Of a stretch of DNA of 64,000 nt, positions 10,562-56,356 are shown in pieces; the stretch's first letter is position 1; each line of letters begins with the position of its first letter. The DNA is taken from positions 124,001-188,000 of the forward strand of contig NZ_RKSM01000003.1 in the NCBI RefSeq assembly GCF_008729015.1, written 5' to 3'. The notes below the pieces were generated by a model. The model ran no database searches. It was given only the letters and a program-made list of their open reading frames with translations, and was not told the origin of the DNA. The DNA comes from Haloarcula sp. CBA1129. Its GTDB lineage: Archaea > Halobacteriota > Halobacteria > Halobacteriales > Haloarculaceae. Both the position numbers and the translations under genes were made by a program.

Positions 10562-12961
10562 ATGAAGTACCACGAGTCGGCGGACTACCTGCAGTCGCTA
10601 CAGCGTCGTCGGCCCAAGTTGGGGACCGATACGACGGCGCGAATGCTCGCGCACCTCGGGGACCCGGACGACAGCTTCGACAGCGTACAGATCGCCGGGT
10701 CGAACGGAAAGGGCAGCACTGCCCGCATGACCGAGAGTGTGCTCAGAGCCGCAGGACTGGACGTTGGTCTGTTCACCTCGCCGGGGTTGAACGGCTTCCG
10801 GGAGCAAATCACGGTCAACGGCGGACGGATACCGAAAGAGCGGGTCACGGAGTTCGTCGAGCAGATCGAGCCCTGTATCGACCAGCTAGCCGCTGAAGAC
10901 GACAAGCCGACGCATTTTGAGGTACTCACCGCGCTTGCGCTCTCTCATTTTGATGTCGAGGATGTCGATGTGGCAGTTCTAGAAGTCGGTATCGGTGGCC
11001 GGTACGACGCTACAAGTGCAGTTGCCCCCGTTGCAAGCGCGGTCACGAGCATCAGTTTAGAACACACCGACCTGCTCGGCGACACAATCGAAGAAATCGC
11101 TCGCGACAAAGCACAGGTCGCACCCCGAGACGCCCCGCTCGTGACGGGGGCAGCCGGCGCTGCCCTCGATGCGATCGAAGAGAGTACCGACACCGTCACC
11201 GTCGGCGGCGAGTCAGCCGACATAACTGCCGTGGAGAACGGCATGCGCTCGGCCGTCGAGAACCGCATCTCACTCACGGGGCCGGACTGGGCGCTCGAAT
11301 CGAATCTCAAATTACTCGGACAGCATCAGGCCGAAAACGCCGGCATCGCCGCGACGCTGGCCCGACAACTCACCGACGTTGACACGGAGACCGTATCGGA
11401 AGGGCTGCGGGCCGCGACCTTGCCGGGCCGGTTCGAAATTCGGTCGACCGACCCGATGGTAGTCCTTGACGGATCCCACAACCCCGGTGCGATGGAGACG
11501 CTGACAACACTTATCGAGCGGTACGAGTACGACGACCTCCACGTAGTCTTCGCCGCGATGCGGGACAAGGAGTACGAGCAGATGATCGAGACTCTTCCGG
11601 CCATCGAGACGGCGTTCGCCACGCGACCGGGGCTCGACCGAGCGGCGAGCACCAAGTCGCTCGCTGCGGCGTTCGAGGGGCAGGCAGCCCGGGTACAGCA
11701 GGTCGAGTCCGTCCCCGAGGCCACCGAACGTGCAATAGCGGCCGCCGACGCGGACGACTTCGTGCTCGTGGCCGGGTCGCTCTACGCAGTCGCCGAGGCC
11801 CGGGACCGCTGGAGTCGGCTGGTCGTTCCAAAGGAGAACCTGCAACAGACGGCGACGGGAGAGACTGTCAGAGCCGGAAGTGAACCGGAGATCCGAGAGA
11901 AGGTAGTATCGGTCACGCTGCGACGTGATCAGGCGGGCGTGGTAACACAGGTGTTCGAGGACTGCGGCGGCACCTGTGCCCGGTCCTCCGCCGGGATGCC
12001 GGAGAAGCTCGTCGACATGACGCTGTCGGGAACGCTGCGGCAGTTTCACAGGCTCACCGACCGGCTGGCTTCGGCGGGCTTGGGGCTCGGTCGACTCGCC
12101 ACGCAGCTCGAAGCCACGCTGTCCGACAGGTCGTTTCCGCCGCCGTTCGATAGTGAAGCGGCGGCCGTGATGGGTATTCTCAACGTCACGCCCGACAGTT
12201 TCTACGACGGCGGCGAGTACGACCGTCGCGACCTTGCGATCAGCCACGCAGAACAGATGATCGAATCCGGGGCGGATATCGTCGACATCGGCGGCGAAAG
12301 CACGCGTCCCGGAGCAGACCCGGTGGCCGTCGAAACAGAGATTGACCGCGTAGTGCCCGTTATCGAGGCCGTGTCCTCGCTCGGCACGACTGTCTCCGTA
12401 GATACCCGAAAGGCCGCCGTCGCTGACGCGGCGCTGGACGCCGGGGCCGACATTGTCAACGACGTGTCGGGACTATCGGACCCGGAGATGCGGTTCGTGG
12501 TTTCCGACCACGACGCATCTATTATCCTGATGCACAGCCTTTCAGCCCCGGTGGACCCGGGCCGGTCGGTGACTTACGACGATGTCGTTGAGGACGTGCT
12601 TCGGGACCTCACGGAGCAGATACTGCTCGCCGAGCAAGCCGGTATCGACCGCGAGCAGGTTATCGTCGACCCCGGCTGTGGTTTCGGGAAGAACGCTGCC
12701 GAATCGTTCGAACTCGTCGACCGGCTCCATGAGTTCCACGCGCTTGACGGTCCGGTGCTGGTCGGACACTCCCGGAAGTCGATGTTCGCCGACGTGAGCG
12801 ACGCAAGTGCGGACAGGCTGCCGCCGACACTGGCCACGACAACGATGGCCGCTGAACGCGGGGCTGACGCCGTCAGAGTCCACGACGTCCCCGAGAACTA
12901 CGCCGTGCTCAAGACGGTCTCGGCGACGGCGTCTCGACCATCACAGCTTCGACAACAGTGA
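10562..12961 (+). CDS. folCP: Fused folylpolyglutamate synthase / dihydropteroate synthase
   Basis: A 799-residue two-enzyme fusion. Residues about 1-420 are a Mur-ligase-type FolC with P-loop AGSNGKGST (K50) and downstream NPGAMETL, adding glutamates to folates. Residues about 530-799 are FolP, with MGILNVTPDSFYDGG, DIGGESTRPGA, DPGCGFGKN and GHSRKSMF, joining p-aminobenzoate to the pterin. Between them (about 420-530) is a linker with CGGTCARS that matches neither enzyme. Such fusions are known from haloarchaea. ATG 10562 follows a TATA-like element and begins the FolC domain; longer starts upstream are not credible. Its pABA could come from the pabB/pabA-type pair at 49.5-51.6 kb. Confidence 0.93.
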   Translation: MKYHESADYLQSLQRRRPKLGTDTTARMLAHLGDPDDSFDSVQIAGSNGKGSTARMTESVLRAAGLDVGLFTSPGLNGFREQITVNGGRIPKERVTEFVEQIEPCIDQLAAEDDKPTHFEVLTALALSHFDVEDVDVAVLEVGIGGRYDATSAVAPVASAVTSISLEHTDLLGDTIEEIARDKAQVAPRDAPLVTGAAGAALDAIEESTDTVTVGGESADITAVENGMRSAVENRISLTGPDWALESNLKLLGQHQAENAGIAATLARQLTDVDTETVSEGLRAATLPGRFEIRSTDPMVVLDGSHNPGAMETLTTLIERYEYDDLHVVFAAMRDKEYEQMIETLPAIETAFATRPGLDRAASTKSLAAAFEGQAARVQQVESVPEATERAIAAADADDFVLVAGSLYAVAEARDRWSRLVVPKENLQQTATGETVRAGSEPEIREKVVSVTLRRDQAGVVTQVFEDCGGTCARSSAGMPEKLVDMTLSGTLRQFHRLTDRLASAGLGLGRLATQLEATLSDRSFPPPFDSEAAAVMGILNVTPDSFYDGGEYDRRDLAISHAEQMIESGADIVDIGGESTRPGADPVAVETEIDRVVPVIEAVSSLGTTVSVDTRKAAVADAALDAGADIVNDVSGLSDPEMRFVVSDHDASIILMHSLSAPVDPGRSVTYDDVVEDVLRDLTEQILLAEQAGIDREQVIVDPGCGFGKNAAESFELVDRLHEFHALDGPVLVGHSRKSMFADVSDASADRLPPTLATTTMAAERGADAVRVHDVPENYAVLKTVSATASRPSQLRQQ

Positions 12962-14540: not shown

Positions 14541-16301
14541 TCAGTCGGTACCCGTCGCCGTGTCGTCACCGCGGTCGGAGATGTCCGTCACCATCTCGTC
14601 GCCAGCGGTCACGACGTCTACGTCCTCCCGTTCGGAGAGGTCCTGAATGGTTTCTGCGAACTCCTCAGACTCGAGTATCTGATACTCGTTGTCGAGCCCC
14701 AGATACACCGTATAGCACATCAGGCACAGGATGAGCGCGAACGGTAGTCCTGTGGTGATAGCGGCCGTCTGGAGCGCCGTCAGGCCCCCACCGATTAGCA
14801 GGATGGACGCGACGAGGCCTTCGGTAAGAGCCCAGAAGATCCGCTGCGTTCGCGGGACGTCGTGCTTACCGCCCGAAGTCAGGTGGTCGATGACCAGTGA
14901 ACCGGAGTCTGACGACGTGACGAAGAACGTGACAACCAGCAGGGTTGCGAGCAGCCCGCTGATGATTCCCAGCGGGAACTGCTCCAGCAGCGCGAACATC
15001 GCGACGGTCTGGCCAACCTCGTTGTAGGTCGCGAGCGCCTGTCCGTTCCCATTTATCGAGTTGAACATGGCGCTACCGCCGAACACCGACAACCAGAGCG
15101 TCGAGAACAGCGACGGAAGGAACAGAACACCTAGGATGAACTCCCGGACGGACCGGCCCTTCGAAATACGCGCGATGAACATCCCCACGAACGGCGACCA
15201 CGCGATCCACCAGCCCCAGTAGAACACAGTCCAAGCGGTTGGCGTCCCGTTGGCCGCTTCGTTGAGCGTGCCGGTAAAGAACCCGAGCGCAAGGATGTTA
15301 CCGAAGTACGCGCCGAGCCCTTCGGTCCACGTCCCGAAGATGTACACCGTCGGGCCGACGATAACGAGGAACCCGAGCAGTGTGAACATCAGATAGAGGT
15401 TGAGCGTACTCAGACGCTTGACACCGCCGTCGAGCCCCGCCGCAACAGAGAGAGTTGCAATGAGCGTGATCCCAGCGATGAGCGCGACCTGCGGCCATGT
15501 TCCCGTCGGAACATTCACCGCGCCGAGCATATCACCACCGACGTATGAGAGGCCTGTGTTGACCTGTGCAACACCGAGCCCCAGCGAGGTTGACAGTCCG
15601 AACAGCGTCGCGAACACCGTCACGAGGTCGATGACGTGACCGGGCCAGCCGTAGATCCGATCACCCAACAGGGGCCAGAATATCGACCGGAAGGTCAGCG
15701 GGAGCCCGCGGTTGAACGAGAAGAACGCGAGACCGAGTCCCACAAGACCGTACACCGCCCACGGGTGGAAGCCCCAGTGGAAGAACGTCTGTGCCATCGC
15801 AGCGGACGCCGCCGCACCGGTTCCGGCCTCGGCTCCGAAGAAGCTGGGTGGGTTCTGGAAGTAGTACAGTGGTTCCGAGACGCTGAAGAACATGAGCCCG
15901 ATGCCCATGCCGGCGCTGAACAGCATTGCCATCCACGAGAAGTCACTGAACTCTTTCTCGGCTTTGACCCCGCCGATTCTGATTTTGCCGTACCTGCTGA
16001 ACGCGAAGTACAGCAAGACGATGATGAACACGTTCACCGCCAGCAGGTAGAACCAGCCGAAAGTGTCCCCGATAGTGTTGAACATCCATGTGTACGCTGA
16101 GGAGGCCGTGTCACCCAACAGTATCGTGATCGCAATGAACAGCGCAATAATCACCAGCGCGACTGGGAAGACCACCGGATGGATGTCGAATCCCGCCGCC
16201 TGAATGTTCGTATCACCGGGCTCCCGGTCGGATTCCGGATGGAACAGTTCGACCTGCAGCCCATCCGACATTTCTCCGGCTTGGTCGTCAGTGTCTGACA
16301 T
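14541..16301 (-). CDS. BCCT-family betaine/choline/carnitine transporter
   Basis: A 586-residue, 12-span secondary carrier. The family glycine motif appears as AGMGIGLMFFSVSEPL, and the signature GWWIAWSPFVGMFIARIS is intact. GMGIG in this position is the form seen in sodium-coupled glycine-betaine carriers, so betaine with Na+ symport is the likely function. A short acidic N-tail and an acidic C-tail (ISDRGDDTATGTD) flank the core. It lies beside the methylated-osmolyte catabolism block and would supply that block as well as act in osmoprotection. Substrate identity is inference. Confidence 0.9.
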   Translation of the reverse strand: MSDTDDQAGEMSDGLQVELFHPESDREPGDTNIQAAGFDIHPVVFPVALVIIALFIAITILLGDTASSAYTWMFNTIGDTFGWFYLLAVNVFIIVLLYFAFSRYGKIRIGGVKAEKEFSDFSWMAMLFSAGMGIGLMFFSVSEPLYYFQNPPSFFGAEAGTGAAASAAMAQTFFHWGFHPWAVYGLVGLGLAFFSFNRGLPLTFRSIFWPLLGDRIYGWPGHVIDLVTVFATLFGLSTSLGLGVAQVNTGLSYVGGDMLGAVNVPTGTWPQVALIAGITLIATLSVAAGLDGGVKRLSTLNLYLMFTLLGFLVIVGPTVYIFGTWTEGLGAYFGNILALGFFTGTLNEAANGTPTAWTVFYWGWWIAWSPFVGMFIARISKGRSVREFILGVLFLPSLFSTLWLSVFGGSAMFNSINGNGQALATYNEVGQTVAMFALLEQFPLGIISGLLATLLVVTFFVTSSDSGSLVIDHLTSGGKHDVPRTQRIFWALTEGLVASILLIGGGLTALQTAAITTGLPFALILCLMCYTVYLGLDNEYQILESEEFAETIQDLSEREDVDVVTAGDEMVTDISDRGDDTATGTD

Positions 16302-17382: not shown

Positions 17383-18645
17383 TTACAGTGTCTCGTTTTG
17401 TGCCTTCCGTGCGACGTTGTCGACAGGGTAGCCCGCATCGCGTATCGCTGTGATGATGGCTCCTGCGTGCTCGGCACCGCTTGTCTCGACGTTGAAGACA
17501 AGATACGCCTCTCCGATCTCGAGATTTTCGACGGACCGCTCGTGTCGGACATCGTGGATGTTGGCCCCCTGTCTGGCGATGACACCCGAGATCTCTTCCA
17601 TCACACCCGGCTGGTCGTCGATACGGACCCGAAGCTGGAGGAGTTGCTGGCGCTCCGTGAGTGCGTGGATGAGAACCTCACGCATCTGTGTCATGTCGAG
17701 GTTGCCGCCACAGAGCAGCGGCATCACCGTCTCGCCCGACACGTCGAGGTCGTCGCTCAGTATGGCAGCCACGGAGGCGGCCCCGGCACCTTCCACGACC
17801 TGTTTGGCCCGTTCCATCAACAGGAGAATCGCCTGTGCGATGTCGGTGTCGGTAACCGTCACGACCTCGTCGACGTTCGCCTCGATGATGTCGAGCGTCG
17901 TCTCCGAGATACCGCCGGTAGCGATACCGTCGGCGATGGTGTCGACCTCGTCGAGCACGACCGGAATCCCCTTGTCGAGACTTTCGTGGACTGTCTCCGC
18001 GCCGGTCGCCTGCACACCGACGACGCGCGTCTCGGGCGAGAGGTGTTTGATTGCGGTCGAGACACCGCTGATGAGCCCGCCGCCGCCGATGGGGACGACG
18101 ACTGTGTCGACATCGGGGCAGTCGTGGTACATCTCCGTCCCGAGGGTCCCCTGTCCGGCAATTATATCCAGATCATCGTAAGCGTGAACGAACTCGGCAT
18201 CGGTCTCCTCGACGATGGCTTTGGCGTGTGACATCGTCTCCTGAAAGTCGTTACCGACCAGCTCGACGCTCCCGCCATAGCCTCTCGTGGCATCGATCTT
18301 GGCCTGTGGCGCGTTCTCCGGCATGAAAATCGTCGAGTCCGCCCCGCATTTTGTCGCAGCGAGGGCGACGCCCTGCGCGTGGTTACCGGCGCTGGCAGCA
18401 ACGAACGACTCCACGCCGTCAGCAACGTCCTGTGAGATCTTGTTGTACGCGCCTCTGGTCTTGAACGAGCCTGTCCACTGGAGGTGCTCCATCTTCAGGT
18501 GTACCTCGGCGTCGACGAACCCGCCGAGGGACGTGCTCCGTTCGACCGGGGTCTTCTTGACGACCGTGTCGTCGTCTAAGCGTTCGCGGGCGCGTTCGAT
18601 GTCCGCGTATGTGACAGGCAGCGTGTCCGATTCGGTTTGTGTCAT
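17383..18645 (-). CDS. ilvA: Threonine ammonia-lyase with C-terminal ACT domain
   Basis: A 420-residue PLP enzyme deaminating threonine (and perhaps serine) to 2-oxobutyrate. The PLP lysine lies in GSFKTRGAY (K62), the phosphate-binding loop is GGGGLISG, and residues about 335-405 form an ACT regulatory domain (VRIDDQPGVMEEISG). The single short ACT domain resembles the catabolic/short IlvA class. EutB of hydroxyectoine degradation is a related alternative; the deacylase at 24489 makes that worth noting, but no other ectoine gene is here. The gene lies directly beside the FAD/GcvT block on the same strand, 56 bp from it. Confidence 0.85.
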   Translation of the reverse strand: MTQTESDTLPVTYADIERARERLDDDTVVKKTPVERSTSLGGFVDAEVHLKMEHLQWTGSFKTRGAYNKISQDVADGVESFVAASAGNHAQGVALAATKCGADSTIFMPENAPQAKIDATRGYGGSVELVGNDFQETMSHAKAIVEETDAEFVHAYDDLDIIAGQGTLGTEMYHDCPDVDTVVVPIGGGGLISGVSTAIKHLSPETRVVGVQATGAETVHESLDKGIPVVLDEVDTIADGIATGGISETTLDIIEANVDEVVTVTDTDIAQAILLLMERAKQVVEGAGAASVAAILSDDLDVSGETVMPLLCGGNLDMTQMREVLIHALTERQQLLQLRVRIDDQPGVMEEISGVIARQGANIHDVRHERSVENLEIGEAYLVFNVETSGAEHAGAIITAIRDAGYPVDNVARKAQNETL

Positions 18646-18701: not shown

Positions 18702-21254
18702 TCATTTGATGATACGCTCCCGGGCCGGATCGAACAGCGGCTCGTCGCGCACCGTCGCATCGTAGGTCTCGCCCTCACACTGTATCTGGACCGAGGTGCC
18801 GGCTTCGGCGTGTTCGGTCGGAACGTACGTGTACGCGATTGATTCGCCGATACTGTAGCCGTAGTTCCCGGCCTGCACGTAGCCGATAGCCTCGCCGTCT
18901 TTCAGCACCGGCCGCCCGCTCAGCATGATGTCCGTCGAGTTATCAAGGGTCAGCGGCGTGATTTTGCTGTCGATGCCCTCCTCGCGGGCTGTCTCCAGCG
19001 TGTCCTTGCCGATAAATTCAGTATCCATATCGACGGCGAAAGGCAGCCCGGCCTCGAAGGGGTTCGAGTCTGTGTCGATGTCCGTCCCCCAGAGGCGGTA
19101 GCCTTTCTCCAATCGCATGGAACTGAGCGCGCCGCCGCCCATCGGTCGGAGGCTGAGGTCGTCGCCGGCGTCCCGCAGCGTCTCCCAGAGCCGCTGACCG
19201 TACTCGGTCGGCGCCCACAGCTCCCAGCCGAGTTCGCCCACGTACGAGACCCGGAGCGCGATGACCGGCACGTCGCCGACGTACATCTGCTTGGCACTGA
19301 AGTACGGGAATCCTTCGTTTGTCACGTCCGCATCGGTGCAGCGCTGGAGGAGGAGGCGGGCATTGGGCCCCCAGAGCCCGATTGTCGACTTCGCGCCTTC
19401 CTCGATGTGGACCGACACCGTCTCCGGAGCCTCGTCTTCGAGGTGGCCGCCGTGGATTCCCGGTGAGTTGCCGCCACCGGTCGTGACCATGAACTCCTCG
19501 TCGTCGAGCTTGACGACAGTGATGTCCGCGAGAATGCCGCCACCGTCGTTCAACAGCAGCGAGTAGCGGACCTGCCCGGTTTCGATGTCCATGTCGTTGC
19601 TACAGACCCGCTGGAGGAACGCCTGACTCCCCTCGCCCTCGACCATAATCGAGCTGAACGTCGTCATGTCGAACATCGACACTTTCTCGCGGGTGTGGAG
19701 ATGTTCGGCAGCCTCGATTTTCGAGCGATTGATTCCCTGCCAGCCGTCTTGGTCGGGAATCCGGTCTTCGTACTTTTCGACCAAGTCGGCGTTAGATTCG
19801 TAGTACTGTGGCGTCTCCCAACCGCCGCTCTGGTAGAACTCCGCGCCGAGTTCTTTCTGCTGGTGATAGAACGGGCTCGTCCGGAGTTTCCGGTGGTCGT
19901 CGGGCTGCCAGCGCGGCTCGACGATGCTGTAGACCTGCTCGTAGCGCTTGGCCCCGCGGTCGACGAAGTAGTCTTTCTTGCCTGCGTGCGGTTCGAACCG
20001 CCGGACGTGAATGCCGCCGGTGTCGACTGGGCCCGAGGGCAGTCGGGGGACGCCGTTCTCCATCCACTCGGCGAGGATGCGGCCATAGCCGCCGGAGTGG
20101 GTCCACCAGATAGCCAGCCCGGTCCAGAGGCCGTCGACCTGCGCCGTCTCGCCGACGGCCGGCATCCCGTCGGGCGTGAAGACGAAGATGCCGTTCTCCG
20201 TGGCCTCGTACTCCACGTCCTGTGTCGCCGGCAGGAGTTCGTCGAAGGCCTGCTTCGCGGACTTGTCCCGCCCGCGGTGAGTCGGCGTCTCCCAGTGCTC
20301 TTTCGTGAACCCTCTGACTGAGGCCTGACGCTCCTCGGTGTTTTTCCCCATCGCTTCGGGGTCGACCGAAAGCGTCTCGTGGTTGTACGATCCCATCCCG
20401 AGCGCGTCGCCGTGGGTCCGGAAGTACAGCGAGTGGTCTTGGTCGCGGCCGACGGGCTGGTGTGGCCCTTCGCTCATGTACTCCGCGATAGAACGGTCTC
20501 CGGGTACGTCTAGCCCGGTCGTGTTGTCACCAACCGAGGATTCAGCGTCGGCGAGCTCCTCCATCGGTTCGGTGACGACGTACTGGTGCTCTACCGGGGC
20601 AATTGGGAGATCGAGCCCGGCCAGCTGGCCCGTCTGGTAGCCCCAGTTGTTCGTCGCGATGACGGCTCGCTCGCAGTCGATGCGGCCCTGATCCGTCTCG
20701 ACGCCGTTGATTTCTCCCCCGGAAACAGCCAGATCCGTGACCTCTGTGTTCCCGTAGAACGACGCCGTGGAGTTCTCCATGTACCACTGGAGCGCGCCGA
20801 TACCGTCGACGCGCCCGTCAGTTGGCGAGTAGTAGCCGCCCAGAATCTCGTCTTCGTCGACCATCGGGAGGTGCTCGGTGACCTCTTCGGGCGAAAGCAG
20901 TTGGGGTTCCGGGAGCCCGTAGGAAGTCGCCCATTCGACGCGTCGACGGAGGTAGTCCATCCGCTCTTCGCTCCGGGCAACCTCGATGCCACCGACCTCG
21001 TCGTAGACGCCGGCATCAGAAAGGAGTCGACTCGTGTAGTAGGCTGTCTTCGTCTGTATCTTGGACGGCGACGTTTGGAACATTATCCCGGGAGCGTGGA
21101 CCGACGACCCGCCAGTGACGGGCAGCGGGCCCTGATCGATGACCGCGACATCCTCCGCGCCGAGTTCGGTCAGATGATACGCGACGCTACACCCGACGGC
21201 CCCGGCACCGATAACGACTGTATCCGCCCGAGACGGGGGAGTCTCTGTGCTCAT
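18702..21254 (-). CDS. FAD-dependent dimethylglycine/sarcosine dehydrogenase-type protein with GcvT domain
   Basis: An 850-residue fusion. The N-terminal FAD oxidoreductase domain (about 1-370) has GAGAVGCSVAYHL and the motif GSSVHAPG with His53, the position used for covalent FAD in dimethylglycine dehydrogenases. A connecting domain precedes the C-terminal GcvT-type THF-binding domain (about 450-850), with blocks such as MTTGGGNSPG and LRVSYVGELGWELW. The reaction is oxidative N-demethylation of a small methylamine (dimethylglycine or sarcosine are candidates), passing the one-carbon unit to THF. A homologous gene follows at 21470. Exact substrate cannot be read from sequence. Confidence 0.88.
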   Translation of the reverse strand: MSTETPPSRADTVVIGAGAVGCSVAYHLTELGAEDVAVIDQGPLPVTGGSSVHAPGIMFQTSPSKIQTKTAYYTSRLLSDAGVYDEVGGIEVARSEERMDYLRRRVEWATSYGLPEPQLLSPEEVTEHLPMVDEDEILGGYYSPTDGRVDGIGALQWYMENSTASFYGNTEVTDLAVSGGEINGVETDQGRIDCERAVIATNNWGYQTGQLAGLDLPIAPVEHQYVVTEPMEELADAESSVGDNTTGLDVPGDRSIAEYMSEGPHQPVGRDQDHSLYFRTHGDALGMGSYNHETLSVDPEAMGKNTEERQASVRGFTKEHWETPTHRGRDKSAKQAFDELLPATQDVEYEATENGIFVFTPDGMPAVGETAQVDGLWTGLAIWWTHSGGYGRILAEWMENGVPRLPSGPVDTGGIHVRRFEPHAGKKDYFVDRGAKRYEQVYSIVEPRWQPDDHRKLRTSPFYHQQKELGAEFYQSGGWETPQYYESNADLVEKYEDRIPDQDGWQGINRSKIEAAEHLHTREKVSMFDMTTFSSIMVEGEGSQAFLQRVCSNDMDIETGQVRYSLLLNDGGGILADITVVKLDDEEFMVTTGGGNSPGIHGGHLEDEAPETVSVHIEEGAKSTIGLWGPNARLLLQRCTDADVTNEGFPYFSAKQMYVGDVPVIALRVSYVGELGWELWAPTEYGQRLWETLRDAGDDLSLRPMGGGALSSMRLEKGYRLWGTDIDTDSNPFEAGLPFAVDMDTEFIGKDTLETAREEGIDSKITPLTLDNSTDIMLSGRPVLKDGEAIGYVQAGNYGYSIGESIAYTYVPTEHAEAGTSVQIQCEGETYDATVRDEPLFDPARERIIK

Positions 21255-21469: not shown

Positions 21470-24040
21470 TCAGACGAGCGGCTCCTCTTGGACAGTCGCG
21501 TCGTACCGCTCTCCCTCGTAGCGGATTTCGACGCTTGTGCCGGGTTCGGCGTACTCGGGTGGCAGATACGTGTAGGCGACGCACGCGCCTTCGGTGTAGC
21601 CGTACTCGGCGCTGTGGAGATAGCCGATGGTTTCGTCGCCGTCGAGGACTGGCTTGTTGTCGAGCACAACAGCCTCCTCGTCGTCAAGGGTCAGGCAGGC
21701 GACCTTGTGGTCGATGTTGTCGCCGTCGGCGGCCGCCGCGACCGCCTCCTTGCCGATGAAGTCGGTTTCGAGGTCGACGGCCCAGCCCAGGCCGGCCTCG
21801 TAGGGGTTGTGCTCCGTGTGGAGGTCCTTCCCCCAGAGGCGGAACCCTTTCTCGATTCGGAGCGAGTCGAGCGCGCCGTTGCCGTACGGGCGGATGCCGT
21901 ACTCCTCGCCGGCCTCCATGATGTGCTCCCAGAGGCGCTCGCCGTACTCCGAGGGCGTGTAGAACTCCCAACCGAGTTCGCCCGCATACGAGACACGCAG
22001 CGCGGTCACGGGAATGTTCTTCACGAAGAACTGCTGGCTCGTGAAGAACGGGAAGGCGTCGTCCGAGAGGTCGACATCGGTGACCTTCGACAGGACTTTC
22101 CGGGCGTTCGGCCCGGTACAGACCATCGCCGCCAGACTTGAGGTCACGTCGTTGACGACCACGTCGTCTGGGGACTGCTCGCGCACCCACGCGACGTGGT
22201 TGTTCCCGACCTCACGGCCGGTCGTCAGCAGGAGGTAGCGGTCCTCGTCGGTTCGCGTGACCGTGATGTCCGCCCGGACCCCGCCGGCTTCGTTGCACAT
22301 CAGCGTGTACTTCACGTCGCCCACGTCGATGTCCATGTCGTTCGTACAGAGGTACTGGATGAACTCGCCAGCATCGCTCCCGATGACTTCCATCTTGTTG
22401 AAGGCGGTCATGTCGTGGAGGCCCACGTTCTCGCGGACGTTCAGCGCCTCGGCACCTTCGATCGGCGACCAGTACTTCGCCTCCCAGCCCTCTCGGTCGG
22501 GAATCCGGTCGCCGTACTCCGCCAGCAGGTCAGCATTCGATTCGAACCAGTGTGGCGCTTCCCAGCCGGCCTCTGCCCACAGTTCGGCGTCGTACTCCTT
22601 GTGGGTGTGGTACATCGGGGTCCGGCGGATGTCCCGCTGTTTGTCGGTCCAGACCCATTTCGGGTGCATGATGTTGTAGACGATGCGGTACTCCTCGCCC
22701 CCGATGTCCCGGGCGAAGTCCCAGCTCCCCTCGTGCTCGTCGAACCGGTTCACGTCACAGTGGGCGAGATCAATCGGGCCGGACGGGAGCCGTGGACTAC
22801 CGTTCTCCATCCACTCAGCGAGCGCTTTGCCGGCACCGCCGGCGTGAGTGACCCAGATGGCCGCCGCCGTCCAGAGGCCGTCGTACTCCTGTACAGGACC
22901 CATCACGGGAAGGCCGTTGGGTGATTCAGCGAACATCCCGTTGTACTTGTGTTCGAGCTCCTTGCCGGCCGTTGCCGGGAGGAGTTCGTCGCTGGCCTGA
23001 CGCGGGGCCTTGTCCGGCCGGTCCGGATGGGTCGCGTTGTCCATGTGGTAGTCAGTAAAGTCGTGGACCGACCCCTGCTCGCCGTCCGGGTCGTTCCCGC
23101 CCAGTTCCTGCGGGTCGGGCACGATTGGCTCGTGGTTGTACGAGCCGATACCGTAGGAATCCCCGTGGTTCCGGTAGTACATCGCGTTGTCCTGATCGCG
23201 CAGAATCGGCCGGTCCGGGCCGACGAGCAGCCGCTTTGCTTTCTCCCCGGAGACGTTCTCGTAGTTCTCGAACAGCGGGTGGTCGGTGATGTCGACCGCA
23301 CTGTCTGCCAGTTCCTCAAGCGACTCCGTCATCGTGTACTGGTGCTCGACCGGCGTCACTGGCAGGTTTACGTCGAGTTTCTCGCCGAGTTGCCGGGCCC
23401 AGATGTTCGTCGCGACGACGACCTCGTTACACTCGATACTGCCGTTCTCCGTGATAACGGCCCGTACCGAGCCGTTTTCGGTTTCGACGTCTTCCGTTCT
23501 CGTGTGCGGGACGAACTTCGCGCCCCGGTCCATCGCTTCACGGGCCAGCGCGTCACACGCGACGACACCGGAGACCTGCCCGTCCGTCGGGGAGTAGTAG
23601 CCGCCCTTGATCTGGTCGGCGTCGACAAGCGGGAGGTGTTCAGTCACTTCCTCGGGCGAGAGCAGCTGGGGGTCCTCTATCCCCCATGCCTTGGCGTACT
23701 CGACGCGTCGCTGGAGGAAGTCCATGCGCTCCTCGCTACGTGCGACTTCGATGCCACCTGTTTCGTTGTATGCTTGATGTCCATCGGCCCCTTCAAGATC
23801 CGAGTACAGCCGCCGGCTGTAGTCCGCGAACTGGCTGAGGACCTTCGGTTCCGCGGTCTGGAACATGATTCCAGGGGCGTGCGTCGACGATCCACCGGTG
23901 GTGGGCATCGGCCCCTGATCAACTACGACCACATCTTCACGACCGAGCTCTGTCAGCTGGTAGGCGATGTTGCAGCCGACGATTCCAGCGCCGACGATCA
24001 CGGTGTCGGCCTTGGTCGGCAAGCTATCGGTAGGCTCCAT
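21470..24040 (-). CDS. Paralogous FAD-dependent dimethylglycine/sarcosine dehydrogenase-type protein with GcvT domain
   Basis: An 856-residue protein with the same architecture as the gene at 18702: GAGIVGCNIAYQL, GSSTHAPG with candidate covalent-FAD His54, and a GcvT half with LTTGREVGNNHVAW and LRVSYAGELGWEFY. Divergence from its neighbour is considerable, so this is an old tandem duplication and the two may act on successive substrates such as dimethylglycine then sarcosine. The start at 24040 (MEPTDS) is chosen because residues upstream are not halophile-like. The 215-bp gap to the downstream gene includes its own TATA-like AATCTTAAATAC (21284-21295), so the second gene has a separate promoter. 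Confidence 0.88.
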   Translation of the reverse strand: MEPTDSLPTKADTVIVGAGIVGCNIAYQLTELGREDVVVVDQGPMPTTGGSSTHAPGIMFQTAEPKVLSQFADYSRRLYSDLEGADGHQAYNETGGIEVARSEERMDFLQRRVEYAKAWGIEDPQLLSPEEVTEHLPLVDADQIKGGYYSPTDGQVSGVVACDALAREAMDRGAKFVPHTRTEDVETENGSVRAVITENGSIECNEVVVATNIWARQLGEKLDVNLPVTPVEHQYTMTESLEELADSAVDITDHPLFENYENVSGEKAKRLLVGPDRPILRDQDNAMYYRNHGDSYGIGSYNHEPIVPDPQELGGNDPDGEQGSVHDFTDYHMDNATHPDRPDKAPRQASDELLPATAGKELEHKYNGMFAESPNGLPVMGPVQEYDGLWTAAAIWVTHAGGAGKALAEWMENGSPRLPSGPIDLAHCDVNRFDEHEGSWDFARDIGGEEYRIVYNIMHPKWVWTDKQRDIRRTPMYHTHKEYDAELWAEAGWEAPHWFESNADLLAEYGDRIPDREGWEAKYWSPIEGAEALNVRENVGLHDMTAFNKMEVIGSDAGEFIQYLCTNDMDIDVGDVKYTLMCNEAGGVRADITVTRTDEDRYLLLTTGREVGNNHVAWVREQSPDDVVVNDVTSSLAAMVCTGPNARKVLSKVTDVDLSDDAFPFFTSQQFFVKNIPVTALRVSYAGELGWEFYTPSEYGERLWEHIMEAGEEYGIRPYGNGALDSLRIEKGFRLWGKDLHTEHNPYEAGLGWAVDLETDFIGKEAVAAAADGDNIDHKVACLTLDDEEAVVLDNKPVLDGDETIGYLHSAEYGYTEGACVAYTYLPPEYAEPGTSVEIRYEGERYDATVQEEPLV

Positions 24041-24488
24041 ATCTCTGGGTAAAACGTACGAAGGCGTGGCAATATAGTTACCGCCTAACCCGACCCCCTT
24101 TGCAAAATAACAGCGAAGTATCACTTAGTGTTTCAAAATAACAGGAGTACCACTGTTAATAAGTCAACGTCTCTTGCGGCGATTGTTGCTGCCGGACGGG
24201 GCTGTGGTATCGCTCAACGCTAGGTATCTGTCATATCGAGTACTATGTTACCAATTCACTATCAATCAATACGTCGATGTGCCCCGTCTCGTTCCGGCAA
24301 ATCCAGCCGAACAGGGTCCAGTCACCACACGGGGTCCAGACGCTGCCATTGAGTGGGAATACTGGTCACGTCGTTGAACGCTGTATCCGTCAGTGCCTCT
24401 GTGTCGAGGGAACATCACAGCATGACTAATCAACCGAATAATGTTTCGGCTCCCGGTGTTTTTTGTCTGTACGCCGCCGGGCAGTAGT
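24041..24488. promoter_or_regulatory. Divergent spacer between methylamine dehydrogenase and deacylase genes
   Basis: A 448-bp region carrying both promoters. Position 24110 onward is AT-rich with the sequence TTTCAAAATAACAG. I see no clear operator or gene inside it. Confidence 0.35.
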
Positions 24489-25445
24489 ATGGAATACACG
24501 TCCGTCACGCACACGACATCTGACCGACAGCTCGGACGGTTGCCATCGGGGAGAGACGTGTCCGTGACCGTGCACCGATACGTCGGCGGCCCCGGCCCGA
24601 CAGTGTACATTCAGGCGGCACAACACGGTATCGAACTCAACGGCCCAGCCGCGTTACGGCGGCTCCACGACCACCTTGCTGACGCGTCCATCGCTGGCAC
24701 AGTCATCGTCGTTCCGGTGGTGAACCAGCTCGCGTTCGACCACCGGTCGTACATGACTCCCGGCGAGTACGACGTGATGAACCCGAACCTCAACCGCGTG
24801 TGGCCGGGCGACGCGGCCGGGAGCCTACAGGAACAGTTCGCGGCTCGCCTGTGGGAACTCGTAACTGACGCCGACGCGGCGGTCGACCTCCACACCGGCA
24901 CAGCAGACATGCTGGAGCACGTCAGGTGTCGGGCGGGCGACCCCGCCGCCAAGCGCCTCGCCGAAGCGTTCGGCACTGCATACAGGCTGACCGACGGACA
25001 CGAGGACGCCGGCGACAACGGCTCTGGTGGGACGTTCCGCGCTGCGGCTTCGGCGGCCGGGATTCCGGTTATCACCGCGGAGCTCTCGAACAGTCGCCGG
25101 ATAGCACAGGACGCGGTTACGGCTGGTGTCGACGGGATACGGAATCTCCTGCGCGAACGGGCAGTTCTTCCGGCAGAGCCCGAGGCCCGGACTGAGCAGA
25201 CGGTGCTTCGAAACGACGCAGAAGCGGTCACCGCAGCAGAGTCGGGACTGTTCGAGTGTCGGTCGGATATCGCCGTCGGCGACACCGTCGATGCCGGGGA
25301 ACGGCTGGGGACGGTCTACGAGCCCTCCTCGTTCGAGCAACAACAAATCGTCTCAGCGACAGAACGAGGGGTACTATTCTCACTTGCCAAGGAATCTGTG
25401 GTCGTCAAAGGGGAGCGTCTCGCCGGTATCGCAACACCACGGTAA
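24489..25445 (+). CDS. Succinylglutamate desuccinylase/aspartoacylase-family deacylase
   Basis: A 318-residue zinc-dependent amidohydrolase of the AstE/AspA family, related to DoeB-type N-acetyl-diaminobutyrate deacetylases. Zinc ligands are visible in AQHGIELNGP (His and Glu) and AVDLHTG (His). Residues about 235-318 are a C-terminal beta-rich domain that could act in substrate gating. The start at 24489 (MEYTSV) gives a halophile-like N-terminus. No other ectoine genes are close, so an ectoine role is only one possibility; N-acyl amino acid hydrolysis is safer. Confidence 0.75.
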   Translation: MEYTSVTHTTSDRQLGRLPSGRDVSVTVHRYVGGPGPTVYIQAAQHGIELNGPAALRRLHDHLADASIAGTVIVVPVVNQLAFDHRSYMTPGEYDVMNPNLNRVWPGDAAGSLQEQFAARLWELVTDADAAVDLHTGTADMLEHVRCRAGDPAAKRLAEAFGTAYRLTDGHEDAGDNGSGGTFRAAASAAGIPVITAELSNSRRIAQDAVTAGVDGIRNLLRERAVLPAEPEARTEQTVLRNDAEAVTAAESGLFECRSDIAVGDTVDAGERLGTVYEPSSFEQQQIVSATERGVLFSLAKESVVVKGERLAGIATPR

Positions 25446-25583: not shown

Positions 25584-26777
25584 ATGGGACTTCACACCGC
25601 GTTCACGGCGCTCGCGGAGGTCATCGGTGCGTACGAATCCCGCGGTCGGTCCATCGAGACCGTCGAAGCATCGCCGGCCGATGCCGGTGCTGCAGTCCTC
25701 GATGTGACGGTTGCGATGCCGGTCTCGCTTCGGTCCGGTGGCGGCGCTGATGAGGGTCTCACGCCGGAGAAGGCGAGGCTAACCGCCAGTGGTGATCTCG
25801 AAGTAACGTTCTCACCGTCGGCCACTGACCTCCCGTCGACTGCCGGTGCCTCACTGTCGATAGGCGACACCTCGGCTACGGTCACCGACGACGGCTTGCT
25901 CCTGACGATACAGCTGACAATCGACGCCGCAACTGCGCCAGACGAGGGGACCAGCGTCGACTGTGAGCCCGAACAGGCCAGTCCTGCTGACGCAGCGACA
26001 GTCAGCGCAGTGAGTTCGACCGACACCGTCAGTGGCGCATCGCCCGATGGTTTGGACGTCTCTCATTCGGAGTCTGTCAGCGGCGTAGACAACTCAGAAG
26101 AGAGCCCAACGTCGGACGGCACGGCTACGGCGGATACCCGATCTGGGTGCGAGACTGGCCCTGAATCCGACCCGTTCACCGCTGTCCGCGACGACTCCGT
26201 GCCACCGTACGAGGACACCGACTACCTGCAAGCCCTGTACGACGAGTGCGACAACTTCAGAGAAATCGCTGAGCAGATACAGATGGATGTCTCCTCTGAG
26301 ACTGTCCGCCGGTACATGATAGAAGCGGACATCCACGTCCCGAACACGTACGACACCGCCAGCGACGACGAGGAAGAACCATCGACCAAATCGGAGCCCT
26401 CGGACGAGGGTGCGAGCCAGTCTGGGGCTATGGACGAGGACGGACAGTTCAGTGCGGCCGAACCCGTCGCAGCCGAGTCAGCCGGGTCCGCCGAAGGGTC
26501 GGTCAGGGAACTCCCCGACGAGCAACTGATCACTGACGGGATTGGACTCCCGGCTGATGTCCAGTTGCACGACGTCGCGGTCGCAGTCGTCGATTCAGAC
26601 ACAGTGTATGAGGTCCAGCGGTGTCTGCGTCTCGACCGTGGCCAGACCCGCGACCTGCTGGAGGAACTCAATCTGTTGGATCTCGTCCTGTGTCGGCTCG
26701 CAGAAGAGCCAGAACACGGCGTCTCATACGAGACTGTGGCGAGTCGAATCCGACAGTGTACGCCACACAGCGCGTGA
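25584..26777 (+). CDS. Halophilic acidic protein with HTH-like segment, possible regulator
   Basis: A 397-residue protein I do not recognise as a whole. The N-terminal part (about 1-120) has beta-rich repeats with ADGGLLL-like strands. A long Ser/Asp/Glu-rich, disordered linker follows. A segment near residues 210-250 (YDECDNFREIAEQIQ and VSSETVRRYMIEA) looks like a helix-turn-helix, and a helical C-terminal domain (about 315-397) ends SRIRQCTPHSA. The gene shares its promoter element exactly with the metF-like gene downstream, so it may regulate or serve one-carbon metabolism. The GC content is ordinary. A function is not assigned. Confidence 0.6.
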   Translation: MGLHTAFTALAEVIGAYESRGRSIETVEASPADAGAAVLDVTVAMPVSLRSGGGADEGLTPEKARLTASGDLEVTFSPSATDLPSTAGASLSIGDTSATVTDDGLLLTIQLTIDAATAPDEGTSVDCEPEQASPADAATVSAVSSTDTVSGASPDGLDVSHSESVSGVDNSEESPTSDGTATADTRSGCETGPESDPFTAVRDDSVPPYEDTDYLQALYDECDNFREIAEQIQMDVSSETVRRYMIEADIHVPNTYDTASDDEEEPSTKSEPSDEGASQSGAMDEDGQFSAAEPVAAESAGSAEGSVRELPDEQLITDGIGLPADVQLHDVAVAVVDSDTVYEVQRCLRLDRGQTRDLLEELNLLDLVLCRLAEEPEHGVSYETVASRIRQCTPHSA

Positions 26778-26790
26778 TTGGGCGCGTTGG

Positions 26791-26805
26791 TTATAAATGG
26801 GTTCG
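26791..26805 (+). promoter_or_regulatory. Promoter element shared with the HTH gene (copy 2)
   Basis: Identical TTATAAATGGGTTCG, 65 bp before the ATG at 26856. The same distance and sequence as at 25519 argues for one shared promoter design and co-regulation. Confidence 0.65.
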
Positions 26806-26855
26806 ATGCCCCACCCATAGAGAAAAGTACGGGTACGCCTAATCTCTGGCAAATC

Positions 26856-27716
26856 ATGGCCCTCGGAACTCGCGCTGTCGCAGACAGTCAGGGTGTCAGG
26901 ACGCTGCTGACGAGCGCCCGGTTCGAACTGATGCCGTTCGAGAGCTTCGACGAGGAGATAACCCACCTCCCCGACAACGCCACTATCGCGATCACGACCT
27001 CGCCACAGCTCGGCATCGAGAAGACCGTCGAGAAGACGGAGGAAGCCGCGGAGATGGGGTACGATGTCGTGCCACACATCGCGGCTCGATATGTAGAGGA
27101 TAGAGAACAGCTCGAAGAGATCGCCGAGCGGCTGGCACAGGCAGGCATCACCGACATCTTCGTCCCGGGCGGTGACCGCGAGGAACCGGCCGGTGAGTAC
27201 GAGTCGGCGCTCGACCTGCTCGAAGCGCTCGCAGAGACCGAGTACGCCTTCGAGGAAGTCGGCATCACGGGCTACCCCGAAGGCCACGACTTCATCGACG
27301 ACGAGACGCTGGCGGAGTCGATGGCACAGAAAGCGCCACATGCGACGTACATCGTCACCCAGCTCTGTTACGACCCGGATACGGTGCTGGAGTGGGTCGG
27401 AGACATCCGTGCTCGCGGTGTCGACCTCCCAGTCGAGGTGGGAATCCCGGGTGTGATGAACTACCAGCGGTTAATGCAGATTTCCCAGAAAGTCGGCGTC
27501 GGTGACTCGATAAAGTTCCTCAGGAAAACGACGGGCATTCTCGGATTCGTCAAGCAACTCGTTGGCTCCCGGGGGACCTACGAACCCGATGAACTCATCG
27601 ACGGCCTCGCGCCATACGTCGGAGACGACGAGTACAACATCCGCGGCATCCACATCTACACCTTCAATCAGACGCCCGATACGGAGCAATGGCGGCGCAA
27701 CCGTCTCGATACCTGA
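26856..27716 (+). CDS. metF: Methylenetetrahydrofolate reductase-family protein
   Basis: A 286-residue TIM-barrel protein resembling MTHFR: VVPHIAAR near residue 70, the FVPGGD motif, the ITGYPEGH block, VTQLCYD, and the VEVGIPGVMNYQRL block. The enzyme interconverts 5,10-methylene-THF and 5-methyl-THF. Downstream, on the opposite strand, is the DmdA-like demethylase, whose product would be 5-methyl-THF; thus oxidation of methyl-THF is the attractive direction. The start at 26856 follows the TATA element at 26791. It lacks the C-terminal regulatory domain of eukaryotic MTHFR. FAD and NAD(P)H use are family knowledge. Confidence 0.82.
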   Translation: MALGTRAVADSQGVRTLLTSARFELMPFESFDEEITHLPDNATIAITTSPQLGIEKTVEKTEEAAEMGYDVVPHIAARYVEDREQLEEIAERLAQAGITDIFVPGGDREEPAGEYESALDLLEALAETEYAFEEVGITGYPEGHDFIDDETLAESMAQKAPHATYIVTQLCYDPDTVLEWVGDIRARGVDLPVEVGIPGVMNYQRLMQISQKVGVGDSIKFLRKTTGILGFVKQLVGSRGTYEPDELIDGLAPYVGDDEYNIRGIHIYTFNQTPDTEQWRRNRLDT

Positions 27717-27845
27717 GCCCACTCGTACTGCAGAGACTCAGACTCCGGCTACAAGTAGCCTATTCGTGACCGTCACAATCTGGCCCGAAAAGCGTGTCAG
27801 GCAACAGATGGGTAAGTAGGGTTGCCGGGACAGGCGGAGTAGGGA

Positions 27846-29222
27846 TTAGTCGTCGCTTTCAGCCTCTTTCCGGGCGTTGAGCTTCGCCTGCTCTCGGGCG
27901 CTCGGGTTGACGGACTCCTTGAACGGCACCTTCGCGGCGGTCGCGAACACCGGTTCGCCGGGTTCTTCAGCGTACTCCTCGGGGAGGTGTACTTCGAACT
28001 CCAGATCCAGCTCCTCGTCGTAGATGTCGTCGTTGAGCGGCGTGTCGGTGACTTCCTGAATCTTTTCGGCCGGGACGAAGCCCATCCCGATGTTCGTCTC
28101 GAGGTCCGGGTTCCACCACGGGGAGGTGAGGTAGCCGCATTCCTCGCCCGTGTCCGGGTCGGAGATGAGCCAGAAGTCGGGAGCGTAGTCACGGATCGGC
28201 TCGCCGGCGATCTTCAGGCCGATGAGCTTGTGTTCGAACGGGTAGTTGCCGTTCTCGATCTGTTCTTTCTGCTCTTCGAGCGTCTCCTTCCCGATGTAGT
28301 CGGCGTCCTTGTCGTCAGGAACCTGATATCCGAGGTTGACCTGGAACGGGGAGGTCTCGTGGTCGAGGTCCTGTCCCCAAGACATGATGCCGGCGGCAAT
28401 CCGGCGGTGGTGGCCGGGTGCGATCTGGCGGCCGTCGTGGTCCTTGACCGACGCCATGACAGGGTCCCAGACCCGTTCGGCGTTTTCCATCGCGGCCTTG
28501 ACGTAAATCTCGAAGCCTTCCTCACCGGAGAAGCCTGTCTGACTGATGAGCACGTCGGAACCGTTGATTTCGGCGTCCATCAAGCCGTAGTACGGGACAT
28601 CTTTGACCTTGTCGCCGACGACGTCGATCATTACGTCGAGCGCTCTCGGGCCCTGAATCTGCATCGGTGCAACGTCGATTTCGTCGATCTCGACGTCAAA
28701 GTCGTTGTCGACGTTGACGCCCTGTAGCCACTGCATCAGCGTCGAGTCCGAGATGGAGAACCAAAACTCGTCTTCCTCCGGGCGCAGGAGGACGGGATCG
28801 TTGAGGACGCCGCCGTCCTCGTTACAGAGGACGACGTACTTCCCGTCCATGGCGTCCATGCTCGTCACGTCACGGGTGACGACGTAGTTAGTCAGCGCCT
28901 CGGCGTCTGGGCCCTTGACACGGATCTGGCGCTCGACGGCGACATCCCAGAGGGTGACGGTGTTTGTCAGTGCATCATACTCTTTCATCACGCCACCGTC
29001 CTCTGGTTCGATGAGGCCACGCGGGTGATAGAGTCGGTTGTAGACCGTCGCCCGCCACGCACCCTCCTCGTTGAAGGACTTGTGGAAGAACGGGGATTTT
29101 CGAACGCGCGTCGACACCAACATCTCGATGTTGGGGTCACCAGTCTGGCGGAGATTACGGGGGACGGTCCGGTCTGACTGGTCGACACTGGGATGGTTAG
29201 GATGTTCCTCGGAACCGGTCAT
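27846..29222 (-). CDS. DmdA-like, GcvT-family THF-dependent demethylase
   Basis: A 458-residue GcvT-fold protein. Blocks such as TVYNRLYHPRGL, LWDVAVERQIRVKGPDA, GGVLNDPVLL, IQGPRALDVM and TGFSGEEGFEIYV match those of DmdA, which transfers a methyl group from dimethylsulfoniopropionate to THF. Related GcvT proteins act on glycine betaine or other methyl donors, so the donor here is open. It is longer than typical DmdA, with an extended acidic C-terminus containing EEYAEEPGEP. It faces the metF-like gene across a 129-bp gap, a pairing that fits oxidation of the 5-methyl-THF product. The start is ATG 29222. Confidence 0.75.
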   Translation of the reverse strand: MTGSEEHPNHPSVDQSDRTVPRNLRQTGDPNIEMLVSTRVRKSPFFHKSFNEEGAWRATVYNRLYHPRGLIEPEDGGVMKEYDALTNTVTLWDVAVERQIRVKGPDAEALTNYVVTRDVTSMDAMDGKYVVLCNEDGGVLNDPVLLRPEEDEFWFSISDSTLMQWLQGVNVDNDFDVEIDEIDVAPMQIQGPRALDVMIDVVGDKVKDVPYYGLMDAEINGSDVLISQTGFSGEEGFEIYVKAAMENAERVWDPVMASVKDHDGRQIAPGHHRRIAAGIMSWGQDLDHETSPFQVNLGYQVPDDKDADYIGKETLEEQKEQIENGNYPFEHKLIGLKIAGEPIRDYAPDFWLISDPDTGEECGYLTSPWWNPDLETNIGMGFVPAEKIQEVTDTPLNDDIYDEELDLEFEVHLPEEYAEEPGEPVFATAAKVPFKESVNPSAREQAKLNARKEAESDD

Positions 29223-29459: not shown

Positions 29460-29957
29460 TCATGCCGAGTCGCTGCCGGTTCGAGTGTATCTCACAATCG
29501 CAAACTCGGGGTGTGTCGTCCGATCCGTCTCAGTCCAGTCCGACCACTCGACTGTCGGGAAGACGGTATCGCCGTCGAAAGCTGCTGTTAGTTCGGTCAG
29601 AATTAGTTCGTCGGCCGCTGGGAGAAACTGCTCGTACACGGTAGCGCCGCCAACGACGTACGTCGTCGATGCACCACTGTCGGCCGCTTCAGCTAATGCC
29701 GCCGTGGTCGACGTAACGGCCGTGACAGAGTCAGGAAGCCGTTGCGGCGTCGAGGTTAGAACAATGTTCAGCCGCTCCGGAAGCGGACCGCCGAGGTCAC
29801 ACCGAATACTTTCGAAGGTCCGCCGCCCCATAATCACCGGATGGTTGACAGTCGTCTGTTTAAAATGTGTTAGGTCTTCGGGATACTGCCACGGTATGTC
29901 GCCGCCAGCACCGATTACGCCGTTTGCCGCGACGGCGGCGATCAGTGAGAGTTTCAT
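29460..29957 (-). CDS. folA: Dihydrofolate reductase
   Basis: A 165-residue DHFR, reducing dihydrofolate to tetrahydrofolate with NADPH. Family positions visible are [13 protein letters not shown] near residue 11, [13 protein letters not shown] near residue 40 and [12 protein letters not shown] near residue 97. Numerous acidic residues fit the well studied halophilic DHFRs. It lies in the methyl-THF block and completes tetrahydrofolate production along with folC-folP. No operon partner is close. Confidence 0.93.
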
Positions 29958-30654: not shown

Positions 30655-31308
30655 TCATTCCTCCCTGTCAATTATCGTTGCTGCAATGAGGTTCCGCATT
30701 CCTCGCCGGAGTCGGCCGCTCATTGCTGTCGAGGACAGTCCGATTTCGTCAGCGACTTCGTTCAACGAGATATCTCTGGGCTCCCCGAAATAGCCGTTTT
30801 CGTATGCGGTAATCAGCGCAGTTCGCTGTTCGTCGGTTAACCCGTATGACGACTCGCCGCCGGTGTCCGTGTTTCCGTATATTTCGATGATATCGAGGGA
30901 AATGTCGTTCTCGTTGGCAAACTCCCAGATCGTGTTGAGTGCCTCGCGGTCTGGGAGCAAAAGCCGGACGAGCCACCCGTTACCCTTCGTCTCTGTATGG
31001 ACGAGAAATCCGTTGACATCAGTAACGACAGAGCTGATGAGTTTCGTTGCGGTGGTATGTTCGATGTAGTAGATCCCGGTCTGATCGGTCCAGTCGACGA
31101 GTTCGTAGCTCTGAACTGTCGGGTCGGTATCGAGTGCCTCTTCGAGTCGTGCCCTGTCACGATATTCGATGAGGAACGGAAACACAGTGGACCCCGGATC
31201 AGTATTTCCCTGCGTGATGACACGGATCGCGATGTCTTCGAGGTTCTGTAACGTTGGAACCAGAGCTAGGCGTTCGTGTTCGATGTGTATCTTCGTCGTT
31301 ATTGACAT
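30655..31308 (-). CDS. Bat-type HTH_10 transcriptional regulator
   Basis: A 217-residue regulator of the bacterio-opsin-activator family, known only from haloarchaea and relatives. The N-terminal half is a GAF/HTH-associated ligand domain, and the C-terminus is the HTH_10 DNA-binding domain, recognisable from LTDEQRTALITAYENGY and IGLSSTAMSGRLRR. The start at 31308 gives MSITTKIHIEHERLAL, the family beginning. An inverted repeat TGTGTAC-N8-GTACACA at 31414-31435 lies upstream. The target genes are unknown; it stands next to an AT-rich gap. Confidence 0.85.
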   Translation of the reverse strand: MSITTKIHIEHERLALVPTLQNLEDIAIRVITQGNTDPGSTVFPFLIEYRDRARLEEALDTDPTVQSYELVDWTDQTGIYYIEHTTATKLISSVVTDVNGFLVHTETKGNGWLVRLLLPDREALNTIWEFANENDISLDIIEIYGNTDTGGESSYGLTDEQRTALITAYENGYFGEPRDISLNEVADEIGLSSTAMSGRLRRGMRNLIAATIIDREE

Positions 31309-31413
31309 TGTGTGGGAAGGGGACGCTATCGAGGCATCACAGATCAAGACTAGCCAGACATCTGAGTACCATCATCGGTGAGTTGCTGTGTATCTGTCGA
31401 GTCGCCACGTCAA

Positions 31414-56177: not shown

Positions 56178-56356
56178 GGTTTCGGTTCGGGCAACGGCCT
56201 GCTGCCTCATTGTTTCGACGGACCGAATCGACCAGCACTGTCCAATCAGTGCATAAGCAGGTGATATGTTGTGGGATTCGTGGATACCGGTGCAACCGGT
56301 GGCTATCACGGACCGCTCGGCAGGGGTTTTTAGTCGTTCAGCACGACGCACAGAGT

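Follow-up and report, generated by a model that had tools for sequence, protein, structure and literature searches.

Folate-dependent demethylases and the Haloarcula gene pair

Demethylation of glycine betaine to dimethylglycine is known from three systems, the O2-dependent GbcAB, the homocysteine-dependent BHMT, and the cobalamin-dependent MtgBCD (PMC12478193). Other demethylases use tetrahydrofolate (THF). DmdA acts on dimethylsulfoniopropionate (DMSP), and the SAR92-type DmdA proteins of HTCC2207, H921, and H231 complemented a dmdA mutant for DMSP demethylation (PMC10746254). LigM and DesA of Sphingobium SYK-6 act on aryl O-methyl donors and are coupled to an oxidative methylene-THF reductase (MTHFR), MetF; according to a 2026 review, this MTHFR favours methyl-THF oxidation and has coevolved with LigM (PMC13001107). 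In Pelagibacter, a DmdA-like aminomethyltransferase lies next to metF (SAR11_1265/SAR11_1264), and a second demethylation in the DMSP pathway was proposed in 2011 (PMC3160333). Here we analyzed a comparable gene pair in a 64,000-nucleotide stretch of Haloarcula sp. CBA1129 (contig NZ_RKSM01000003.1, positions 124,001 to 188,000; hereafter the window), in which a GcvT-family protein related to DmdA faces a MetF-like protein, much as a DmdA-related aminomethyltransferase adjoins metF in Pelagibacter. Judging from gene content, we give a probability of about 0.62 to the reading that the GcvT-family protein uses THF to demethylate glycine betaine and supplies MetF and the C1 oxidation enzymes, with neighbouring dehydrogenases taking dimethylglycine and sarcosine.

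The window is haloarchaeal; its contig is 528,641 bp long and the genome 4.05 Mb, and close homologues lie on Haloarcula plasmids. The GcvT-family protein has 458 amino acid residues and contains TVYNRLYHPRGL and LWDVAVERQIRVKGPDA. The MetF-like reading frame is open from 26778, and from the in-frame ATG at 26856 to the stop at 27716 it encodes 286 residues, the same size as the annotated Haloarcula hispanica MetF (861 bp). The two genes are convergent with 129 bp between them; both genes, both sequence blocks, and the gap are as a first-pass annotation of the window had described them. The gene order is the same on H. hispanica plasmid pHH400, where the products are annotated as "glycine cleavage system protein T" and "methylenetetrahydrofolate reductase". 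In H. hispanica ATCC 33960, the corresponding demethylase gene is HAH_RS18290.

The best curated model for the GcvT-family protein was that of DMSP demethylase (NF009133), at 246.8 bits against a cut-off of 410. The cut-offs of the GcvT models were also missed (TIGR00528, 142.8 against 235.85; NF001567, 156.9 against 300), and the LigM/DesA models gave only 44–53 bits. Pelagibacter DmdA (3tfh) was the best match in the Protein Data Bank (PDB), both by sequence and by predicted fold; Foldseek with the AlphaFold model, which is of moderate confidence (pLDDT 71, pTM 0.70) and silent on substrate, ranked DmdA first with GcvT structures nearly tied. A maximum-likelihood tree was built from 80 sequences, comprising the haloarchaeal proteins (35 rows) and reference DmdA, GcvT, DMGDH (dimethylglycine dehydrogenase), and Tdm (trimethylamine N-oxide demethylase) proteins. 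In it, the haloarchaeal proteins were monophyletic (support 100/100) and sister to the bacterial DmdA clade, which includes the three SAR92-type proteins (joint support 100/99). The window protein is not inside the bacterial DmdA clade, and the GcvT domains of GcvT, DMGDH, and Tdm all fall outside the joint clade.

The window protein shares with DmdA (Pelagibacter 3TFH and SAR92-type) its fold, GcvT-family ancestry, presumed methyl transfer to THF, and the residues Y61-N62, E97-R98-Q99, N141-D142-P143, W154, S156, and S232; 12 of 20 DmdA-specific columns are common to the haloarchaeal sequences. Asn141 occupies the position of the GcvT catalytic Asp (Asp97 in Escherichia coli; the D97N T-protein structure is PDB 3a8k) in all haloarchaeal sequences, which fits methyl rather than aminomethyl transfer. 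By contrast, its sequence is only about 26–39% identical to DmdA, its N and C termini are longer, and four positions that are strongly conserved in the other families compared carry changes found only, and always, in the haloarchaeal sequences (R194 to Q228, W/Y197 to F231, E241 to A276, and E259 to Q294, 3tfh numbering first). DMGDH and dimethylglycine oxidase, encoded nearby and placed in the same proposed pathway, also have a GcvT domain, but theirs is fused to an FAD oxidoreductase domain that the window protein lacks.

The tree, the signature residues, and the best NCBIfam and PDB matches agree with the first-pass view of the protein as DmdA-like rather than GcvT, and the phylogeny against both gave no placement with glycine-cleavage GcvT. 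What needs correction in the label of DmdA-like demethylase is the degree of kinship: the hallmarks and the shared clade hold, but the protein is a sister and not a member of DmdA and scores below the DMSP demethylase cut-off. Glycine-cleavage T-protein identity was rejected on the basis of the models, the tree, and the Asp-to-Asn change. A divergent T-protein, or a folate-binding regulator devoid of methyltransferase activity, would account for the GcvT fold and for the several otherwise conserved residues that are changed, but is hardly credible: a GcvT is encoded elsewhere in the genome (C1:1660878, 258.8 bits), Asn stands at the Asp97 position, the protein is placed with DmdA, and the GcvT cut-offs are missed.

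Co-occurrence with MetF and gene neighbourhoods

We surveyed 391 haloarchaeal genomes and found a DmdA-like protein in 98. Group 1 comprises 95 genomes, the other three carrying only a group-2 paralogue or a fragment; its definition, by identity and tree, and the threshold used for Rieske proteins below (≥61 bits) were both set after the data had been seen. MTHFR was present in 95/95 group-1 genomes versus 7/296 others (Fisher p about 3e-83), and a protein with an FAO_M domain, of the DMGDH or sarcosine dehydrogenase (SarDH) type, in 95/95 versus 47/296. Related genomes are not independent, so that genome-level p values are inflated and a genus-level value is safer. MetF lies within about 10 kb of the demethylase in 28 of 39 sampled group-1 loci, and in 8 of the 39 MetF follows the demethylase codirectionally, the matched stretches being 53–242 bp apart, so that the two likely form an operon. 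The other neighbours in the 39 loci are FAO_M proteins of two types (FAO2 in 17, FAO1 in 14), Ser/Thr dehydratase (13), BCCT transporter (12), FolD (11), and formate-THF ligase (7); GlyA occurs in nine group-1 loci.

The window MetF exceeds the gathering score of PF02219 (55.7 versus 24 bits) and misses the classical MetF equivalog TIGR00676 (67.2 versus 293.7 bits). Its best PDB match, nearly full-length, is 7xg9 (E 4e-38), which we take to be the SYK-6 MetF. Second haloarchaeal MetF copies adjoin DesA/LigM-like proteins, that is, GcvT-family THF demethylases, and by coordinates the two genes are close neighbours in at least 12 genomes; two rows of the MetF tree, L087 and L092, looked like mispicked ORFs and were disregarded. 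DesA-like proteins account for three of the seven MTHFR genomes that have no group-1 gene (G057, G221, and G378), and in a class survey of DesA-like genes the other four (G263, G297, G354, and G371) had no recognised partner. In most cases, therefore, haloarchaeal MetF is found with a THF demethylase; this supports methyl-THF oxidation as its role and strengthens the first-pass proposal of a methyl-THF oxidation pair.

The pair might instead be biosynthetic or supply methyl-THF for methionine synthesis by the split MetE, the GcvT-like protein then having an auxiliary part. For split MetE in haloarchaea, the predicted methyl source is methyl-THF or a different methyl pterin (PMC7857596), and the window MetF is the sole MTHFR in its genome. 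Against this, 289/391 haloarchaeal genomes (74%) lack both genes, so methionine synthesis needs neither, and on this ground the methionine role of MetF was demoted. In addition, other MetF copies are mostly found beside DesA/LigM-like demethylases, and the best structural match of the window MetF is 7xg9 and not an E. coli-type MetF. We regard this role as very improbable.

The neighbourhoods also bear on DMSP as the donor. A true DMSP demethylase would take DMSP imported by the BCCT transporter, pass its methyl group to THF for oxidation by MetF, and leave methylmercaptopropionate. In favour of it are the sister relation to functional DmdA, the top curated model, and the restoration of methanethiol (MeSH) production in a dmdA mutant by SAR92-type relatives (PMC10746254). 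However, neither the window nor the surroundings of 60 haloarchaeal DmdA-like loci held a homologue of dmdB, dmdC, or dmdD, which demoted DMSP as first-choice donor; many bacterial relatives are linked to dmdB/C/D, whereas the haloarchaeal genes are linked to DMGDH/SarDH genes. The missed NF009133 cut-off, the haloarchaea-specific changes at conserved positions, and the complementary distribution with Rieske enzymes described below further make this reading unlikely. Some bacterial relatives (Marinobacterium, Amphritea, and Lichenihabitans) resemble the haloarchaeal loci in having MetF and FolD neighbours. In Marinobacterium and Amphritea (L126, L127, L131, L132, and L137), two DmdA-like genes lie <9 kb apart with MetF, FolD, and often PurU.

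A candidate glycine betaine pathway and its Rieske counterpart

Two DMGDH/SarDH-type genes 4–9 kb from the demethylase and a betaine-type BCCT transporter, all absent from the first-pass annotation, carry most of the functional signal. That annotation had left the donor open; context and the Rieske distribution now narrow it to glycine betaine as the most likely donor and disfavour DMSP. We infer the substrate, the reaction direction, and the pathway flux from the genes themselves, as follows. The demethylase would transfer a single methyl from glycine betaine onto THF, giving dimethylglycine and 5-methyl-THF. MetF, acting in the oxidative direction, would convert 5-methyl-THF to 5,10-methylene-THF, and FolD/FchA, formate-THF ligase, and formate dehydrogenase would carry this on to CO2. 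As the first-pass annotation had stated, all four are in the window, where profile matches located them, the FchA-like protein with a score below its cut-off. The two FAD/GcvT fusion proteins would take dimethylglycine to sarcosine and then glycine, each step yielding methylene-THF, and serine hydroxymethyltransferase with the Ser/Thr ammonia-lyase may convert glycine to pyruvate. The gene identities, the clade, the linkage, and the co-occurrence are direct observations. So is the absence of known alternatives: a family search of the window genome found none of the three known betaine-demethylating families, namely, BHMT, the Rieske alpha subunit (GbcA), and MttB (MtgB).

Among 142 FAO_M genomes, the demethylase occurs alone in 72, a quaternary-amine-type Rieske alpha subunit alone in 44, both in 23, and neither in 3, against 24.8 with neither expected under independence (odds ratio 0.022, p 7e-16). 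At the genus level, the corresponding numbers are 22, 12, 9, and 2 (p 8e-4). FAO_M is present in every genome with a quaternary-amine-type Rieske protein, and 40 of the 46 FAO_M genomes without any DmdA-like match have the Rieske gene within 20 kb of FAO_M. In 20 sampled clusters, the Rieske gene lies with FAO_M, in most of them also with genes for a Ser/Thr dehydratase and a BCCT transporter, and a monomeric sarcosine-oxidase-like protein is frequent. Rieske clusters mostly lack MetF; MTHFR occurs in only 4 of the 44 Rieske-only genomes, as expected if the Rieske enzyme yields formaldehyde. The distribution is as expected if both enzymes fill one step, releasing 5-methyl-THF in one case and formaldehyde in the other. 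Together with the linkage to dimethylglycine/sarcosine-type dehydrogenases and the betaine-type transporters, it favours glycine betaine as the donor.

The nearest named relatives of the Rieske protein are GbcA among the models and carnitine monooxygenase (PDB 6y8j) among solved structures. Since the Rieske counterpart is equally close to both, and since GcvT-family THF demethylases use varied donors (LigM, DesA, and DmdA), the donor could be another N-methyl compound (carnitine, choline, proline betaine, or trimethylamine N-oxide) or several of them, with the DMGDH genes there for a different reason. We consider this rather improbable because the two dimethylglycine/sarcosine-type dehydrogenases and the Ser/Thr dehydratase in the cluster point to betaine products; moreover, the recurrent neighbours, part of which are annotated, showed no further gene recognisable as specific to an osmolyte.

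Several points count against glycine betaine demethylation itself. To our knowledge, direct attack of THF on a quaternary ammonium methyl group has no precedent. Active-site function is not assured because conserved residues are altered in all haloarchaeal sequences. The betaine activity of the Rieske protein is likewise presumed, as its score against the GbcA model (141 bits) is far under the cut-off of 670. Both enzymes occur in 23 genomes. Lastly, the tested relatives of the clade are SAR92-type DmdA only, 35–38% identical, and act on DMSP (PMC10746254).

With these points weighed, gene content still leads us to think it fairly likely that about a quarter of haloarchaea have a further betaine-demethylation route, in which a DmdA-sister enzyme, coupled to an oxidative MetF, passes a methyl group directly from a quaternary ammonium compound to THF and needs neither cobalamin nor oxygen. 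Glycine betaine is likely abundant in brines. If glycine betaine is the donor, haloarchaea would divide between an oxygen-using Rieske route that releases formaldehyde and a folate route that releases methyl-THF, the folate step being independent of oxygen and keeping the methyl electrons. Direct THF demethylation would then reach beyond sulfonium and aryl ether donors to a quaternary ammonium, and caution would be due in labelling archaeal DmdA-like genes as DMSP genes. No earlier report of a GcvT-family betaine demethylase was found in the literature searched, where most subscription papers were missing. In haloarchaeal genomes surveyed in 2011, dimethylglycine oxidase genes were seen close to BCCT transporters, with no enzyme named for the first step (PMC3102087). 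A study of DmdA evolution used a Halobacteriales calibration, so its sequences probably included haloarchaeal homologues, although their function was not analysed there (PMC7487153).

Gene inventory of the window and minor observations

The genes of the window that bear on the pathway, on folate metabolism, or on the neighbourhood of the pair are listed in Table 1.

Table 1. Annotated features of the window, in order of position.
Feature	Coordinates	Strand	Basis
FolE-like GTP cyclohydrolase I	6779..7411	+	NF006826 160.3 bits, cut-off 162
FchA-like methenyl-THF cyclohydrolase	7812..8405	+	NF045657 117 bits, below cut-off 275
Formate-THF ligase	8491..10449	-	NF010030 796 bits, above cut-off
FolC-FolP fusion, folate biosynthesis	10340..12961	+	TIGR01499 and TIGR01496, both above cut-offs
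BCCT transporter, betaine type	14541..16301	-	TIGR00842 473.6 bits, above cut-off; NF047988 (glycine betaine BCCT) 518.7 bits, below cut-off 650
Threonine/serine ammonia-lyase (putatively glycine-derived serine to pyruvate)	17383..18645	-	TIGR01127 433 bits, above cut-off
DAO-FAO_M-GcvT-GcvT_C fusion, dimethylglycine/sarcosine dehydrogenase type 2	18702..21254	-	Domains; recurs with demethylase
DAO-FAO_M-GcvT-GcvT_C fusion, dimethylglycine/sarcosine dehydrogenase type 1	21470..24124	-	Domains; recurs with demethylase
AstE/AspA-family (DoeB-like) deacylase	24441..25445	+	PF24827; in 12/39 loci
Acidic protein, 397 aa, frequent MetF neighbour	25584..26777	+	In 21/39 loci
MetF-like 5,10-methylene-THF reductase, putative methyl-THF oxidase	26856..27716	+	PF02219 55.7 bits; PDB 7xg9
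DmdA-sister GcvT-family protein, putative THF-dependent glycine betaine demethylase	27846..29222	-	NF009133, 3tfh, tree
Dihydrofolate reductase	29460..29957	-	PF00186 164 bits
HTH_10 (Bat-type) regulator	30655..31347	-	PF04967; homologues in 28 sampled group-1 loci
FolD methylene-THF dehydrogenase/cyclohydrolase	48319..49374	-	NF010764 548 bits, above cut-off
Second BCCT transporter	51630..53486	-	NF047988 359.5 bits, below cut-off
NuoF-like subunit adjoining formate dehydrogenase	56168..57880	+	TIGR01959 119 bits, below cut-off
Formate dehydrogenase alpha subunit	57877..61188	+	TIGR01591 830 bits, above cut-off

The AstE/DoeB-like deacylase could free an acylated osmolyte. The acidic protein that precedes MetF, which has no Pfam or NCBIfam match, is possibly a regulator or a partner.

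The group-2 DmdA-like paralogue (L102–L121) is 66–71% identical and occurs without MetF and, save one exception, without DMGDH; 12 of the 20 group-2 loci share a related gene downstream, which encodes an HTH_10 regulator. One genome carries group-1 and group-2 genes in tandem (G129:C114:105238-108411, L083).

Among the 391 haloarchaeal genomes, 22 encode DesA/LigM-like THF-dependent O-demethylases, in many cases next to a second MetF. They mostly score 400–536 bits with NF047633, below its cut-off of 800. An example is locus L217, with the DesA/LigM-like gene at 6289–7635 and MetF at 7944–8801; others are L218, L219, and L221. These genes hint at O-demethylation of methoxy-aromatic compounds in haloarchaea. 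A diverged MetF (53% identical) lies near an IclR regulator in L212 and L220, where no GcvT-family demethylase was detected alongside. At 1347–4090, the window also encodes an Archaea-specific SMC-related protein (ASRP) adjoining the rod-determining factor RdfA.

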